Shown here: positions 9,708 to 56,016 of the stretch, piece after piece
Layout of the letters: every line of letters begins with the position of its first letter
How positions within the stretch are numbered: position 1 is the stretch's first letter
Assembly: GCA_015039365.1 (NCBI GenBank)
Contig: WION01000139.1
Span: 62,001-126,000, forward strand
DNA length: 64,000 nt
DNA from: Amanita rubescens
Taxonomy: Eukaryota; Basidiomycota; Agaricomycetes; Agaricales; Amanitaceae
Direction of reading: 5' to 3'
Notes under the pieces: model-generated
Seen by the model: the letters and a program-made list of their open reading frames with translations, nothing else
Told to the model about the DNA's origin: nothing
Database searches by the model: none
Position numbers and translations under genes: made by a program

Positions 9708-10970
9708 ATGATACTTCATGTCTTTTGGCTCGTTCTACTACTAGTAGTCCCTCTCATCATTGCCCAGGCTGTTCCCGATGTAACCTGTACGAATAGTCAG
9801 TTCGGTTGGGTGAGCATCTTTTTTCGGACCCAAGAATTCAAGACTGAGGGCCATAGACAAGCAATTCCATAGGCCAAAGCCCATGTTACGTCGCGACATT
9901 GTTAGTTGAGCCATGTGGTCAAGGTAACTTAGGGTCCGCTTTGTACGTATCCCCGTCGAGCTAAGGAATTCTTCGTCCAGATGTCTCCTTTGGGCCTCTT
10001 TCACCTGGAAGCGCGGGGTACGGGGCTGTATCAGACAACTATCCCAACAACTTATGCATGTGCAATTCGGTCACGTACTGCTTGATTTCAGCGTGTGCTG
10101 CTTGTCAAGGCGCTTCCTGGCTCACGTACGTTAGATTTATGTTGACTTGCGTCCCCGAAAATTGAGAGCTTGACCGATCTGTCAGATGGCCAGATTACTC
10201 ACAAAATTGCACCAAAACATGGCGTGTCAAACAGCAAGTTCAATTGTTAGTACAAGACAACACCACTAAAGCAAACCTCTACTAGGTATCCTGAACCTCT
10301 CCCACCAAATGCTCAGGTGCCGCACTGGGCTTATCAGAACGTGTCGGTTTGTATAAGTGATGATCTTGTCTGGTTTCGACGGGTGACCGACATATGAATT
10401 TAGGACAACGACAACAATTTCAATGTTTCCGCTGCGTCCGATGCCGGTACGTCTTACTAGAAGTAATAAAGCCCAGACACCGCGGCTAACAAGTTTTCTA
10501 CTTCAACAGTCGGCCCTGAATCAACACCTCCGGCAGGAGGACCAACATTAACAACAATGCCATTATCATCGACATCGAATCCCTCCTCTAATCCATCCAA
10601 TACCAATAGTAGCTCAAACCTCTCGCCTCCTTCATCTACAATCGACACTGGGGCAATCGTAGCAGGTGGTGTTATCGGATCTATCATTGGAGTGGCATTG
10701 GTTGCGGGATCAGTATTGTTGATTTACAGGAGGCAATCTCCTCAACCTTCACCGTTCCTTCAACCAACACCAAACTCTCCTCAACCAACACCAAACTCTC
10801 CTCAACCTTCACCGAACCCTCCTCAACCTTCACCGAACCCTCCTCAACCTTCACCGAACCCTCCTCAACCTTCACCGAACCCTCCTCAACCAACACCAAA
10901 CGAACCTTCACTGAACTTTCTTCGACTAACACCGAGCTCTAGTGTGACGTGGTTTTCACAGGCACCTTAA
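9708..10970 (+). CDS. Small secreted/type I membrane protein with Cys-rich ectodomain and Pro-rich tail
   Basis: Seven exons: 9708-9809, 9857-9923, 9981-10125, 10186-10245, 10286-10346, 10404-10446, 10510-10970 (312 aa; phases consistent throughout). Residues 1-~20 form a signal peptide (MILHVFWLVLLLVVPLIIAQA). The ectodomain has regularly spaced cysteines (GQSPCYVATLL, NNLCMCNSVTYCL, SACAACQGASWLT) and a WAYQNVS segment, a pattern seen in a widespread agaricomycete family of unknown function. A Ser/Asn/Pro-rich stalk precedes one membrane helix (GAIVAGGVIGSIIGVALVAG, ~230-250) followed by YRRQ. The cytoplasmic tail has about eight PQPSPNP/PQPTPN repeats encoded by an 18-bp tandem repeat (~10735-10905). 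A cell-surface role is inferred from topology only. The gene is intact and sits between the 9.1-kb and 11.6-kb direct repeats. Confidence 0.75.
10735..10905 (+). repeat. 18-bp coding tandem repeat (PQPSPN/PQPTPN)
   Basis: Units of the form CCTCAACCTTCACCGAAC or CCTCAACCAACACCAAAC are repeated head to tail. They keep the reading frame and encode the proline-rich tail of the membrane protein. Confidence 0.85.
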
Positions 10971-48140: not shown

Positions 48141-48853
48141 ATGGCATCCGAAAGTACGCCTAATATTTTTTGTTGAATTGACACGTTCTTAGCCTCATCA
48201 CAGGTGCACCCCCTTGGTTCAAGGAATCAATCAAAGAGGTCGTCAACGATGCTATCAATGATAGCATCAAAGCAAGTCTCGTCGAGGTCCTCGGCCTTCG
48301 CGCTGGCCAATCCACAAACTTGCCCGAAATTCTAACCAACACCCTTCAACCTATCAGGAACGACATCCGCACGATACTAAATGATGCACTTCAACCAATC
48401 AAGAATGACATCCGCACGATAAAAGATGCACTTCAACCAATCAAAAATGACCTGGCCATAGCTAAATATCAATCTGCCATGGTACATAGCTTTTAATATC
48501 ATATAAAATTGCTTATTTTATTGGGTAGGTTTATAATCACACATTTGTCATATTCCACACGGACCCTTTGGGCCTTTTTCCATTGTCCTGCTCCCAGACT
48601 CGGACGGCAAGGATCCTACAGAAGAACCGGTACATTTAGTATGATTTTTGTTTAAATGTGGCAGTGACTTACCATTCTTTAGCATCAACTTCCACCGCTC
48701 TCCTCCCTTCAGGCCATCAAGGACCTCTCAGATAATGATGTCAAAACATATTTTGATAGGTACCGAGGAACGACACGAAGACATGCTAGAACTATCCAAG
48801 ATAAGCGTGCGGCAATACTGACCATGCTGGGCATTGGTATAAAGTTGGATTGA
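48141..48853 (+). CDS. Mug135-like protein, frame break in middle exon
   Basis: Exons: start uncertain near 48141, then ~48192-48481, 48529-48629, 48683-48853. The first large exon encodes an amphipathic helical segment (PPWFKESIKEVVNDAINDSIK) and then two or three copies of a 13-residue unit (DALQPIKNDIRTI). The middle exon ends PFSIVLLPDSDGKDPTEEP, and the last holds LPPLSSLQAIKDLSDNDV, YFDRYRG and RAAILTMLGIG. This pattern recalls the Mug135-like C-terminal domain (Pfam Mug135_C), common in mushrooms and of unknown function. The ATG at 48141 does not join the next exon in phase by any simple splice. The middle exon is 101 nt and needs a -1 shift between its two ends. Confidence 0.5.
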
Positions 48854-52101: not shown

Positions 52102-52377
52102 TCAAAGAGGACTGGACTTACATAATAAATTGCTAAGAACTAATTTTCTGCATTCAGCACACTCTGCTTCAGATGGGCAATGCTTCATGATAAACCAATC
52201 ATTGATTCCCATTGACCTTAAGTAGTTGTCCAGGTCTTCATCAACCAGTGCATGCTGGGTCTTGAGATAAAATTCCCATGCCTTGGTGAAGCCATCATTG
52301 GAATTGTAACCTTGCTGGACAATCCAGAAGGAATGTTCAAGACAGATGAGGATGGCTGTACATGTAATGGTAAGAAA
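52102..52377 (-). CDS. Protein-coding exon of an unassigned minus-strand gene
   Basis: After an acceptor at ~52378 the minus strand is open through a hydrophobic segment (FLTITCTAILICLEHSFWIV), then GYNSNDGFTKAWEFYLKT, LVDEDLDNYLRSMGINDW and CPSEAECAEC. The stop is at 52102 unless the donor at ~52132 is used. It has no Met near its start, so upstream exons are required. Short hydrophobic coding-like pieces occur between 52400 and 52600 on the same strand. It may be the 3' part of the GTPase gene beyond the minisatellite; that link is inferred from strand, order and the hydrophobic C-termini of related mushroom GTPases. Confidence 0.4.
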   Translation of the reverse strand, partial: FLTITCTAILICLEHSFWIVQQGYNSNDGFTKAWEFYLKTQHALVDEDLDNYLRSMGINDWFIMKHCPSEAECAECRKLVLSNLLCKSSPL

Positions 52378-52619
52378 CTGTAAATATAAGAGAAAGGGTA
52401 GGATTAATCAGACCAATGAAACAATCCAAAGAAGGCACCTATGTAATTGGGAATATTTGAGTTAAGGGAATGAAAAGAATAAGATATGATCCTACATTGA
52501 ATTGAGCATCCACAAGACTCTGAACATTGTTGACCTGTGAAGTTTATGCCTATTAATGAAGTAGGGCAAAGAGAGTAGATGGGAGAAGACAGGTACAAAC
52601 TAAACAAGATATGAGAGTG

Positions 52620-54153
52620 ATGTCAGCAATTCAGGAGACACAGTGACTCACAAGCTGGATGGGATTTCATGGCAGGATGTCAGCAATTCAAATTGAGCCA
52701 GGAGACACACATTCACTCACTCCCTGGATGGGATTTCATGGCAACATGTTATTTTTAGGAGGCACACAGTCACTCACAAGCTGGATGGGATTTTATGGCA
52801 ACATATCAGCAATTCAAATTGAGCTAGGAGGCATACAGTCACTCACAAGCTGGATGGGGTTTCATGGCAACATGTCAGCAATTCAAATTGAGCTAGGAGG
52901 CACACAGTCACTCACTCCCTGGATGGGGTTTTATGGCAGCATGTCAGCAATTCAAATTGAGCTAGGAGGCATACAGTCACTCACAAGCTGGATGGGATTT
53001 CATGGCAACATGTCAGCAATTCAAATTGAGCTAAGAGGCATGCAGTCACTCACTCCCTGGATGGGATTTCATGGCAACATGTCAGCAATTCAAATTGAGC
53101 TAGGAGCACACAGTCACTCACTTCCTGGATGTGATTTCATGGGAACATGTCAGGAATTCAAATTAAGCTAGGATGCACACAGTCACCCACTCGCTGGATG
53201 GGATTTCATGGGAACATGTCAGCAATTCAAATTGAGCTAGGACTTGGAGGCACACAGTCACTCACGCCCTGGATGGGGTTTCATGGCAACATGTCAGCAA
53301 TTCAAATTTAGCTAGGATGCACACAGTCACCCACTTGCTGGAGGGATTTCATGGGAACATGTCAGGAATTCAAATTGAGCTAGGAGGCATACAGTCACTC
53401 ACTCCCTGGATGGGATTTCATGGCAACATGTCAGTAATTCAAATTGAGCTAAGAGGCACACAGTCATTCACAAGCTGAATGGGATTTCATGGGAACATGT
53501 CAGGAATTCAAATTGAGCTAGGAGGCACACAGTCACTCACTCGCTGGATGGGATTTCATGGGAACATGTCAGCAATTCAAATTGAGGCTGAGGCACACAG
53601 TTACTCACTCGCTGGATGGGATTTCATGACAACATGTCAGCAATTCAAATTGAGCTAAGAGGCACATAATCACTCACTCGCTGGATGGGATTTCATGGCA
53701 ACATATGTCAGGAATTCAAATTGAGCTAGGAGGCACACAGTCACTCACTGCCTGGATAGGGTTTCATGGCAAATGTCAGCAATTCAATTGAGCTAGGAGG
53801 CACACAGTCACTCACTCGCTGGATGGGATTTCATGGCAACATATGTATGTCAGCAATTCAAATTGAGCTAGGAGGCACACAGTCACTCACTGCCTGGATG
53901 GGATTTCATGGCAACATGTCAGCAATTCAGGAGGCACACAGTCACTCACAAGCTGGATGGGATTTCATGACAACATGTCAGCAATTCAAATTGAGCTAGG
54001 ATGCACAGTCACTCACCAACTGGATGGGATTTCATGACAACACGTCAGCAATTCAAATTGAGCTAGGAGGCACAGTCACTCACTCCCTGGATGGGATTTC
54101 ATGGCAATATGTCAGCAATTTAAATCAAGTGAAGGAGGCACAAAGCAACTCAC
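52620..54153 (-). repeat. Minisatellite of ~22 units, ~69 bp each, each shaped like an intron on the minus strand
   Basis: About 22 head-to-tail units were counted from the plus-strand landmark CTGGATGGGATTTCATGG. Most spacings are 66-76 bp, with a few shortened units. Read on the minus strand a typical unit starts GTGAGTGACTG, has GAATTGCTGAC about 25 nt before its end, and finishes CCCATCCAG: 66 nt in all, followed by three variable bases (CTT, GGA, CGA, TTG, GCA) before the next GTGAGT. The donor, branch site and acceptor match those of confirmed introns nearby. On the plus strand 69 bp is 23 codons, so a repetitive frame (MSAIQIELGG...) appears, which is judged a by-product. Confidence 0.9.
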
Positions 54154-54610
54154 CTTCTAGATATGAGGTGAATCATTTCTATCAATTTGGAATTCTCCAT
54201 GTAACTTGCTTATTACCTCCTATACACTACATTCACAAGTTACCTTCCTATCACTTTGAAATTCTTACATTTTCCCCCTTATTACTTGCATAATTAGTAT
54301 ATTGTCAAATTAGCTTAATGTGATACTCACATACTGAATATCCAGGTTAAACTTTGTCACCAATATTTGGTCATGATACTTACATCCTGAAACATCTTTC
54401 ATCACCATCTTCCCTGGCTCAAGTAGAAGTGGACTCTCACATGATCCTTCTCAATTTCAGTCATGGCTCAAGAAAATGCATTCAATTTGCATACCTGCCA
54501 ATAGCAATGTCCAAACCAACATGCAGCCTTGTAAATCAAGTCATACTTTGTTCATCTGAGCACTCAAATTTCCACAATTCAAGAAAAAATGTACCACTGT
54601 TGAGGTATTC

Positions 54611-56016
54611 TCAAAGATAAACCTGAAATAGAGAGATAAGTTGAAGCAACTGCAGACAAATGGATGACAGACTTGTTTACTGCATATTCAATGCAGACCT
54701 CTAGGTTATTCTGTTGGACAGTGACAAACAGCATTTTCAGCACCAAGTTGTCAATTGATGCTGCTGTCTGTTTGATTAGTTCCCCAACTTGTTCCTGATG
54801 ATTACCTTCATCCTTCTCAATAGCTGGACAAGCTATAAGTCCCAAGATTGGTTGCTAAAGGAGAAGAGACATACATTCAAATTGCACATATGCATGAGGT
54901 GAAGACTTGTAACCCTTAAGTGGCTTCTCAAACTTCTCCTTCAAGGTAGCACAAGCAACTTCCCTATTCTCCTCATCTTCTTTGTTCCTATCATAGACCT
55001 GTGTAATGAGATCATCGAATTTTGTGAAGATTGCCACAACTGGAACTGTCTGTTGTCAGCCACAATAAAGAGTTTGGAGTTCTCAAACAATCTTACCATT
55101 CCCACAATGTTGCTCATCAAAGAACTTCTGTTCCAATTCCAATAACGGGCGAGATACATCTGGAGCAAAACAAAACCTGAATGCATTGTCAGTTGTGCTA
55201 CATAAATGAAGGATTATAACACACCATATCACATGGATTTGGTCCTTTACTTCATTTGCTTTCGCCTTCTCCTGTATGAAAGAGCGTATGTCCTGAAGTT
55301 CCTGCTCGCCTCCTGCCTCAAAACAAGGAGAGTCATGGAAGATGAACTGTGGGTTGCTCATGAAGGAAAACTCATCATGAACATTATGGATCCCTCGCTA
55401 TAGCATCAAAGTCAACAACCTGGTTGGAGAAATGCACAAGGATCATCACCTTCGAGGTTGGGTTAATCTGTGGGTGAAGGGGTGATGATAGTAGGGCTAA
55501 GGGTATCAAGCGAAGCGGATATCCTACCTGGCTGTAAACTGGATCCTCCTTCGTATTGCAGACCCGCTTCAGCAGCGTCGTTTTACCAGCATTCGCCCTC
55601 CCGATAACGAGGATACGGAAGTGGGTGTACTTGGCCCGGAGTTTTGCAGCTTCTACCGGGTCAGTCATCATCATTGGTACAGCGGGTGCTAGATCAGCTG
55701 GAGGCGCAGAAACGGTTGGAGGCGAAACGACGACGGCAGGTGGAGCAACAACTGCTGGAGGCGAATTCGAGCGGTTAGGAGGCGTACTCTGCGATCCCCG
55801 TCCGAACTTCTTCCTCAGGCGATTGCAAAATCCCTTGGACTCTTTGGCAGTCTGCGACCGTTGGTCAGCCATATCGATGAGGGGAGATAAGAGCTTCCTA
55901 CAGGCGATCGTTACACGTCGGCTAACGCGGCACCGATCTTTCTCACCGGGCTTCTTCTCGATAGGAGGTCTCGCAGACCTTATTCCCGCGCGAGAACTCA
56001 GCAACCCAGCACTCAA
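54611..56016 (-). CDS. P-loop GTPase of the expanded mushroom family
   Basis: Exons 56016-55528, 55467-55450 (only 18 nt, INPTSK), 55397-55225, 55176-55097, 55045-54875, 54823-54681, with a possible short last exon ending at 54611. G1 is GRANAGKT within FRILVIGRANAGKTTLL; G3-like HDSPCFEAGG follows, and G4-like TKFDDL lies in VVAIFTKFDDLITQV. Between them the G domain is complete (QELQDIRSFIQEKAK, DVSRPLLELEQKFF, HQEQVGELIKQTAASID). The N-terminus is a basic then Pro/Val-rich extension; MADQ at 55870 is an alternative start. Cellular role unknown; the family is numerous in Agaricomycetes. The reading frame ends soon after EYA, but the gene may continue through the minisatellite to the exon at 52.1-52.4 kb. 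Confidence 0.75.

Follow-up and report, generated by a model that had tools for sequence, protein, structure and literature searches.

The 64,000-nucleotide stretch of Amanita rubescens DNA analysed here (the window) carries on its minus strand a gene for a P-loop GTPase, and inside that gene lies a tandem array of near-identical short introns spaced three bases apart. We read the array as a series of complete introns split by three-base exons, each of which very probably adds one in-frame codon to the GTPase mRNA. The gene model, drawn from splice grammar and homology (Table 1), has 40 exons and 39 introns, all GT..AG, with a coding sequence of 1431 nt that would form a single, stop-terminated frame of 476 amino acids; its domain matches the P-loop GTPase family MMR_HSR1 (PF01926) at an E-value of 2.5e-6 and 28 bits, against a curated Pfam cut-off of 21.9. 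Spliced at each GT..AG, the window gene reads HCYWQDHDYGENEKGLLARARRRLGQGREGLGLLGLFVNNVQSLVDAQFNVPSLDCFIAILICLEHSFW.

Tandem Repeats Finder (TRF) places the array at 52638-54125, with a period of 69, 21.8 copies and a score of 2043. In the gene model it consists of 23 GT..AG introns with 22 three-base pieces between them, bounded upstream by exon 14 (which ends at 54154) and downstream by exon 37 (which starts at 52599); the 22 pieces, down to 52652, spell GLLARARRRLGQGREGLGLLGL. The introns are 52-72 nt long, exactly 66 nt in ten of the 23, with GTGAGT donors in 20 of 23 (GTGGGT twice and GTGAAT once) and CAG acceptors in 22 of 23, the final intron ending in TAG. The initial annotation had described a tandem array of complete introns, in the sense orientation of an adjacent GTPase gene and with a common donor, branch and acceptor grammar. 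The complete introns and their strand are borne out, and so, in the proportions just given, are the donor, the acceptor and the 66-nt length; the CTGAC branch motif did not prove to be specially kept, and the model places the array inside the gene rather than beside it.

The three-base spacing also emerges from a chain search that uses splice scores, is blind to exon content and compares spacings of 0-12. In the window this search returns 23 successive 3-nt exons, namely exon 14 and the 22 of the array, and at most two exons at any other spacing save spacing 7, where there are 12; in 14 control pieces of 7 kb taken elsewhere in the window, none of these spacings yields more than two. Under a less refined donor rule and spacings of 1-15, spacing 3 yields 12 exons, spacing 13 yields 8 and the rest 1 (controls, at most 3). 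We read the spacing-7 and spacing-13 chains as echoes of extra GTs within GTGAGTGACTGTG.

Table 1. Predicted features of the GTPase gene and its intron array (positions within the window)
Feature	Position	Strand	Basis
GTPase gene containing the array, 40-exon model	52102..55872	minus	splice grammar and homology; Pfam MMR_HSR1
Tandem array, 23 introns and 22 three-base exons (exons 15-36)	52600..54153	minus	TRF, gene model, chain search
First array exon, GGA (Gly)	54084..54086	minus	gene model
Last array exon, CTT (Leu)	52652..52654	minus	gene model
Exons 1-8 (18-345 nt), P-loop GTPase domain to ...KAACWFGHCYWQ	54495..55872	minus	model, dN/dS
Exons 9-14: GATCAT (DH), GAT (D), TAT (Y), GGGGAAAAT (GEN), GAG (E), AAG (K)	54154..54446	minus	model, alignment
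Exon 37, TTT (Phe), three bases after the diverged last unit	52597..52599	minus	gene model
Exon 38, VNNVQSLVDAQFN (39 nt), pairs with relatives' VHNGVSAHFN	52496..52534	minus	model, alignment
Exon 39, VPSLDCFI + 1 nt (25 nt), pairs with relatives' TPSSYAFIA	52414..52438	minus	model, alignment
Exon 40, C-terminal segment ILICLEHSFW...	52102..52355	minus	dN/dS 0.52

Around the array, exons 9-14 correspond to N/S-H/Y-D-Y-G-K-x-E-E in related proteins, and exon 10 aligns as GAT in two paralogs (L026 and L027). The exons that follow the array encode a C-terminal segment that is conserved. The predicted mRNA would run ...TATTGGCAG-GATCAT-GAT-TAT-GGGGAAAAT-GAG-AAG-GGATTGCTTGCACGAGCACGACGACGACTTGGACAAGGCCGAGAAGGACTTGGACTTCTTGGACTT-TTT-GTCAACAATG..., and the predicted peptide across the codon tract would include EGLGLLGLFVNNVQSLVDAQFN. 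Other short tandem repeats in the window lie at 10738-10891 (21 bp, 7.5 copies) and 48344-48451 (45 bp, 2.5 copies).

The array belongs to a gene family. In the 75.7 Mb assembly we identified 27 loci, the window and L009-L034, of which L029-L034 were found by exon matches and unit scans. The array occupies the identical position within the gene in all 27 close paralogs found, and in each of the 20 other loci compared, homology to L011 takes in the gene on either side of the array. A 35-base core of the unit (at most three mismatches) has 592 matches genome-wide, every one inside the 27 loci. A neutral satellite dispersed in the genome is ruled out, since every core match lies in one gene family; a transposable unit was likewise rejected, as the homology covers the gene body and fits gene duplication (terminal repeats were not searched for). 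The number of linkers between recognised units ranges from 7 to 41, with a median of 25 (26 loci, L034 left out), and the 27 loci carry 24 distinct linker strings. Pooled Nei-Gojobori (NG86) ratios of nonsynonymous to synonymous substitution (dN/dS) are 0.47 for exon 1 and 0.16 for exon 3 (26 loci each), 0.31 for exon 5 and 0.35 for exon 6 (27 loci each), and 0.52 for the last exon (25 of 27 loci, L012 and L032 being unaligned); exon 1 varies by many indels among loci, and none of these five exons contains a stop in any locus aligned. These ratios point to constraint on the exons that flank the array. Judged by their sequence, most gene copies look like working genes, in which case the array must be removed or translated. 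Three of the copies (L020, L021 and L022) lie about 10 kb apart on contig C779, L021 and L022 having the same linker string, and in L020-L023, L025, L028 and L030 there is a 42-bp repeat in three copies, whose sequence suggests a coding region before the P-loop.

Across the family the splice signals are intact. At all 631 junctions examined in the 27 loci (two interrupted ones of L034 were left out) the linker is preceded by AG and followed by GT, so that the loss of donor or acceptor motifs on which the initial annotation would have given way is not seen. Linkers are 3 nt long in 625 cases, 6 nt in three, 4 nt in two and 2 nt in one. Read as codons they are GGA (189), GCA (94), CGA (86), TTT (78), CTT (68), CAA (45), GTT (19), GAA (18), AGA (12) and a few rare ones, with no stops. 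The linker columns are hypervariable, the majority base reaching 0.52, 0.47 and 0.71, against at least 0.944 in all 66 intron columns. Within the intron, donor and CAG columns mismatch at 0.06% and the 52 non-signal columns at 1.67% (538 units, 24 non-redundant loci), and the 14 signal columns are lower in mismatch than the rest (Mann-Whitney p 5.6e-5); this column test took only 603 of 660 first-to-last-column matches (538 without three duplicate loci), a selection that favours intact ends. The third base of the one-codon exons is G or C in only 5 of 560 (24 non-redundant close loci), perhaps through a constraint by which the splice register is preserved. Since A or T fills nearly every third position, in the distant paralogs too, we dropped an argument for positive selection drawn from amino-acid-changing versus synonymous linker differences (129427 versus 1201 pairs).

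What the linkers might encode is suggested by relatives that lack the introns. Homologue searches (in two of them the best 120 matches were listed) provided 182 proteins for comparison, 18 of which have both the upstream and the C-terminal motif: three from annotated NCBI genomes (P0010, P0039, P0140) and 15 on short contigs of 914-1554 bp. The intron-free P0106 aligns to the 476-residue model straight through the array, with 61% identity over 287 residues and seven gap letters, and exactly at the place of the array the relatives have a variable low-complexity stretch of similar length, reading for example HCYWMNHDYGKEEEARGFAFAGFRRFAVGAGAGRFGAGADAFTDGVHNGVSAHFNTPSSYAFIAILICLEHSFW in P0106 and GHNYGTKEDRRGLGLLGILRRDLLRDLGRRDLTSFVSHVHGLMGAQCNVPSLWSFIAIFICLEHSFW in P0141. 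All seven deposited A. rubescens models examined (P0001-P0004, P0006, P0008 and P0014) lack the C-terminal motif, presumably because gene finders stop early where the exons get too small.

Composition points to the same phase, though with less force among distant relatives. For a first set of 14 relatives, made up of the truncated P0138 and 13 of the 15 proteins from short contigs, the composition cosine is 0.87 in phase 0, 0.54 and 0.40 in phases 1 and 2, and 0.19, 0.36 and 0.50 on the reverse strand; 2 of 10000 shuffled genetic codes and 1 of 10000 amino-acid label permutations do as well as phase 0. With P0029, P0082, P0010 and P0039 added (18 relatives), the cosines become 0.82, 0.58 and 0.40, and 0.21, 0.36 and 0.57 on the reverse strand, the limits of the relatives' stretches having been set by hand in sight of the homologues. 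Compared relative by relative, phase 0 is the best fit in only 10 of the 18; the other eight, mostly more distant, favour phase 1 (P0135, narrowly, and P0143, P0150, P0137, P0029, P0082, P0010 and P0039). Among the closer relatives the test therefore favours phase 0; among the more distant ones, in which the alphabet of residues has shifted, its outcome is mixed. Because the cosine fell and all four added relatives favour phase 1, we lowered our confidence both in the linkers as codons and in the broader claim of a new gene architecture.

Distant paralogs separate the spacing from the repeat. Among 230 candidates in the genome, matching with the upstream exon scored 123 loci beyond the 27 close ones, and three of the 123 were sampled (L035, L036 and L037, the last extended by L038). 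They contain runs of 25 (L035, where the run reaches the end of the fragment), 41 (L036, whose introns measure up to 97 nt) and 41 (L037 with L038) one-codon exons, without a stop; under the same looser limits no other spacing between 0 and 12 gives more than two, save spacing 7 with 5, 26 and 20, which we read as a register echo of GTGAGTGA. Tighter limits leave runs of 25, 18 and 41, with no stop in 84 codons versus 4.4 (position-specific) to 8.3 (base composition) expected, while spacing 7 gives 2, 4 and 11 and other spacings and the controls at most two. The third base in these 84 exons is A in 39, T in 39, G in six and C in none. A relaxed chain rule was discarded: it accepts strings such as AAG-TGA-GTGACA and produced spurious registers in which 2, 7 and 11 stops appeared, whereas the scored version settles the register and gives none. 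Mean intron identity within the runs is 57%, 58% and 64%, against 45-46% when shuffled; no TRF array of period 40-120 and at least three copies is listed in L035 or L036, and L037 has a separate 65-bp TRF array. Since all three keep the spacing between mutually diverged introns, the one-codon architecture is not tied to the one repeat seen in the window. A C-terminal domain of the P0104 type gave 13 matches in our search, all within the 27 close loci, so that no C-terminal exon is placed in L035-L038.

These observations bear on two explanations in which the three bases never reach a protein. The units could be introns of which an early donor pairs with a late acceptor, so that the linkers are lost and the number of units makes no difference to the mRNA; the 631 junctions, all with donor and acceptor intact, suit this, and such a splice would also stay in frame. 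We consider it improbable, because it leaves unexplained the stop-free phase-0 linkers, the low-complexity stretch of similar length in intron-free relatives, and the three-base spacing that distant paralogs have kept despite diverged introns. Alternatively, the array could be a non-coding minisatellite within one long intron, its splice-like motifs inherited from a founder intron and its linkers meaningless. The array is indeed a tandem repeat of similar units, as its TRF period and copy number show, with high unit identity and a signal of tandem duplication, and constant linker length fits a low indel rate. A minisatellite is nonetheless very improbable in our estimation: mismatches are far rarer in the splice columns than in the other intron columns and the linkers alone are hypervariable, while in L035 and L036, with no TRF array and diverged introns, the three-base spacing has outlasted the identity of the repeat units. 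A minisatellite would not account for that, and the codon-like linkers, with the corresponding stretches of the relatives, would also speak against a wholly non-coding repeat.

The array appears to evolve by exchange of whole units. Neighbouring linkers are identical in 151 of 524 pairs versus 95 expected (maximum 123 in 2000 shuffles), in keeping with the initial proposal that an intron was multiplied together with three bases. Intron variants travel with the three bases that precede them (59 of 158 pairs versus 38.8 expected, maximum 55 in 1000 shuffles) and are not tied to those that follow (47 versus 42.8 expected, shuffle maximum 56). The 24 distinct linker strings, the identity of neighbouring codons and the tie of intron variants to the preceding codon only together suggest unequal exchange. 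Deletions between introns have also occurred: in L014, L015, L017 and L019 the intron after exon 12 is fused with an array intron, and exons 13 and 14 (GAG, AAG) are lost as whole codons only, with the splice sites preserved. L014 and L017 lack exon 37 as well, their last unit leading directly to exon 38 through a CAG acceptor. The initial annotation in effect treated the three bases as inert and proposed that growth of the array would leave the mRNA as it was, which does not fit linkers that behave as codons; being stop-free, in phase 0 and in the one frame that aligns with P0106, they are more likely single-codon exons, and each added unit would most likely add one amino acid.

Unit exchange must be set beside repeated insertion of a single intron, introner-like or by reverse splicing, between the codons of a pre-existing tract, an explanation that is itself compatible with one-codon exons. 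The homogeneous intron bodies between non-homogeneous codons speak for it, and some introners make target site duplications of 3-9 bp, according to the portion of the literature cited (PMC9860276). We regard it as unlikely, given that no core match lies outside the 27 loci, that intron variants follow the preceding codon and that neighbouring codons tend to identity. The initial annotation had suggested looking for the unit as a single intron elsewhere; no single-copy source exists in the genome at the level of the 35-base core with at most three mismatches, and its distinction between the array and dispersed introners is upheld.

We propose that the spliceosome would remove these introns singly, by intron definition, and that each removal would fuse a three-base exon to the growing upstream exon. 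The next donor would again be preceded by a normal exon, and the tiny exons would need no recognition as exons; any skipping of them would stay in frame. The near-identical introns would meanwhile serve as recombination cassettes, in which unequal exchange may add, delete or reorder whole codons and leave the frame and the exon ends untouched. By this route the family could vary the length and sequence of the stretch between the GTPase domain and the C-terminal segment, and the window array would represent a recently homogenised case of an older one-codon-exon tract. A new gene architecture is on balance the likely outcome, held with somewhat less assurance than the coding role of the linkers: in a large GTPase family of mushrooms, a hypervariable stretch would be built from exons of a single codon each, up to 41 in succession, with introns as in-frame recombination cassettes and exons that annotation drops.

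Several observations weigh against this reading, among them the selection of matches in the column test and the mixed phases and hand-drawn limits of the composition test. The splicing of the array is predicted from splice grammar and homology, and the boundaries of exons 9-14 were drawn by hand with homologues in view. The CTGAC branch motif has 25 mismatches in 538 units, ranking 14 of 62 five-base stretches. Linker length deviates at 5 of 565 non-redundant junctions versus 3.6 expected at the indel rate of the intron body, and on this ground we dropped constant linker length as proof of coding; if included, the 4-nt linkers of L010 and L011 and the 2-nt linker of L029 would shift the frame. 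The missing synonymous variation may, with a third base nearly always A or T, be a splicing constraint. The short-contig relatives are probably transcripts, judging by open frames that cross several intron positions. In P0029, a full-length relative with a predicted structure of mean predicted local distance difference test (pLDDT) score 84.3, the residues below pLDDT 50 are 1-20 and 296-306; the latter match exons 9-14, and the part that corresponds to the codon tract, beginning at about residue 307, includes a predicted helix (314-337). A reading of the tract as a surface or disordered loop is weakened by this helix, and we do not claim it. The best Foldseek hits of this structure are immunity-related GTPases (Irga6, GM4951), a weak resemblance at query template modelling (TM) scores of about 0.31-0.41. 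Finally, one-base deletions occur in ordinary exons of L028 (exon 3) and of L010 and L027 (last exon), in L032 (C49) the gene breaks off inside the array and lacks its 3' end, and two insertions, several hundred bases each, interrupt the L034 array (C114:41500-46500).

The truncated and interrupted copies, with three linkers and three exon deletions that would shift the frame, could be taken to mean that the loci are decayed gene copies and the array their debris. This is extremely unlikely: no stops occur in five exons across the 25-27 of 27 loci aligned, dN/dS is 0.16-0.52, and the window gene has a full open frame.

Set beside described systems, the gene most resembles the micro-exon genes (MEGs) of schistosomes and tapeworms, whose exons measure 3-81 bp by one statement and 6-81 bp, with 15 bp the commonest size, by another, with introns of 0.1-5 kb, in the parts of the reports cited (PMC7653826, PMC10526429). 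As described there, MEGs share with it runs of small multiple-of-three exons that are hard for gene finders and whose skipping would alter the protein but not the frame. The inferred window model has 40 exons where the MEG definition asks for at least seven, and 32 of them (exons 2 and 8-38) are micro-exons by the same definition, 31 consecutively (8-38), as far as the cited text sets it out (PMC7653826); on these structural grounds the gene would qualify as a micro-exon gene in an extreme, one-codon form. For a further criterion, micro-exons carried by transcripts and skipped so as to vary the protein, the comparison covered only homologous proteins free of introns. Unlike MEGs, its family has runs of 22-41 exons all of one codon, with introns of 45-97 nt that are near-identical and tandem in the window, in a fungal GTPase gene. 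Human RPS24 likewise has three neighbouring microexons, one of 3 bp, but these measure 3, 18 and 22 bp and are alternatively spliced, with no one-codon run in the portion of the report cited (PMC11162997). Plant microexons of 1-15 nt are also widely misannotated, yet in the cited part of their survey they are reported single or paired, with no consecutive one-codon run (PMC8831610). Introners and introner-like elements similarly occur as many near-identical introns, in the text cited (PMC4457414), whereas the A. rubescens unit, with 592 of 592 core matches in the 27 loci, occurs only at a single position within a single gene family. Stwintrons are complex fungal introns removed, as is proposed for the present ones, by consecutive splicing reactions, in the passages cited (PMC8469720, PMC9024468); as described there they are nested, one interrupting a splice signal of another, whereas here intact introns, with AG and GT bordering the linker at all 631 junctions examined, stand side by side with a codon between them. 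For filamentous fungi, the abstract on the Xlr2 microexon of Trichoderma virens (PMC11121469) calls functional microexons previously undescribed, and what it describes is one regulated microexon, not a run. We found no tandem intron arrays, micro-exon arrays or 3-nt exon runs of this kind in the 5.39 million open-licence papers searched, and as far as that literature shows, the combination of one-codon uniformity, short tandemly similar introns and a fungal GTPase family is undescribed.

If transcripts confirm the splicing proposed here, these would be the longest runs of one-codon exons of which we found a trace in open-licence literature, and the spliceosome would be seen to build a protein segment routinely, residue by residue. 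Introns would gain a concrete adaptive use in frame-proof codon shuffling, and the end of the deposited A. rubescens models examined before the C-terminal segment would be explained. The natural series of arrays, with between 7 and 41 linkers, would allow direct tests of intron versus exon definition and of intron gain by tandem duplication. More broadly, the family would possess a diversifying device at the level of DNA, one that has been overlooked because gene annotation drops one-codon exons.
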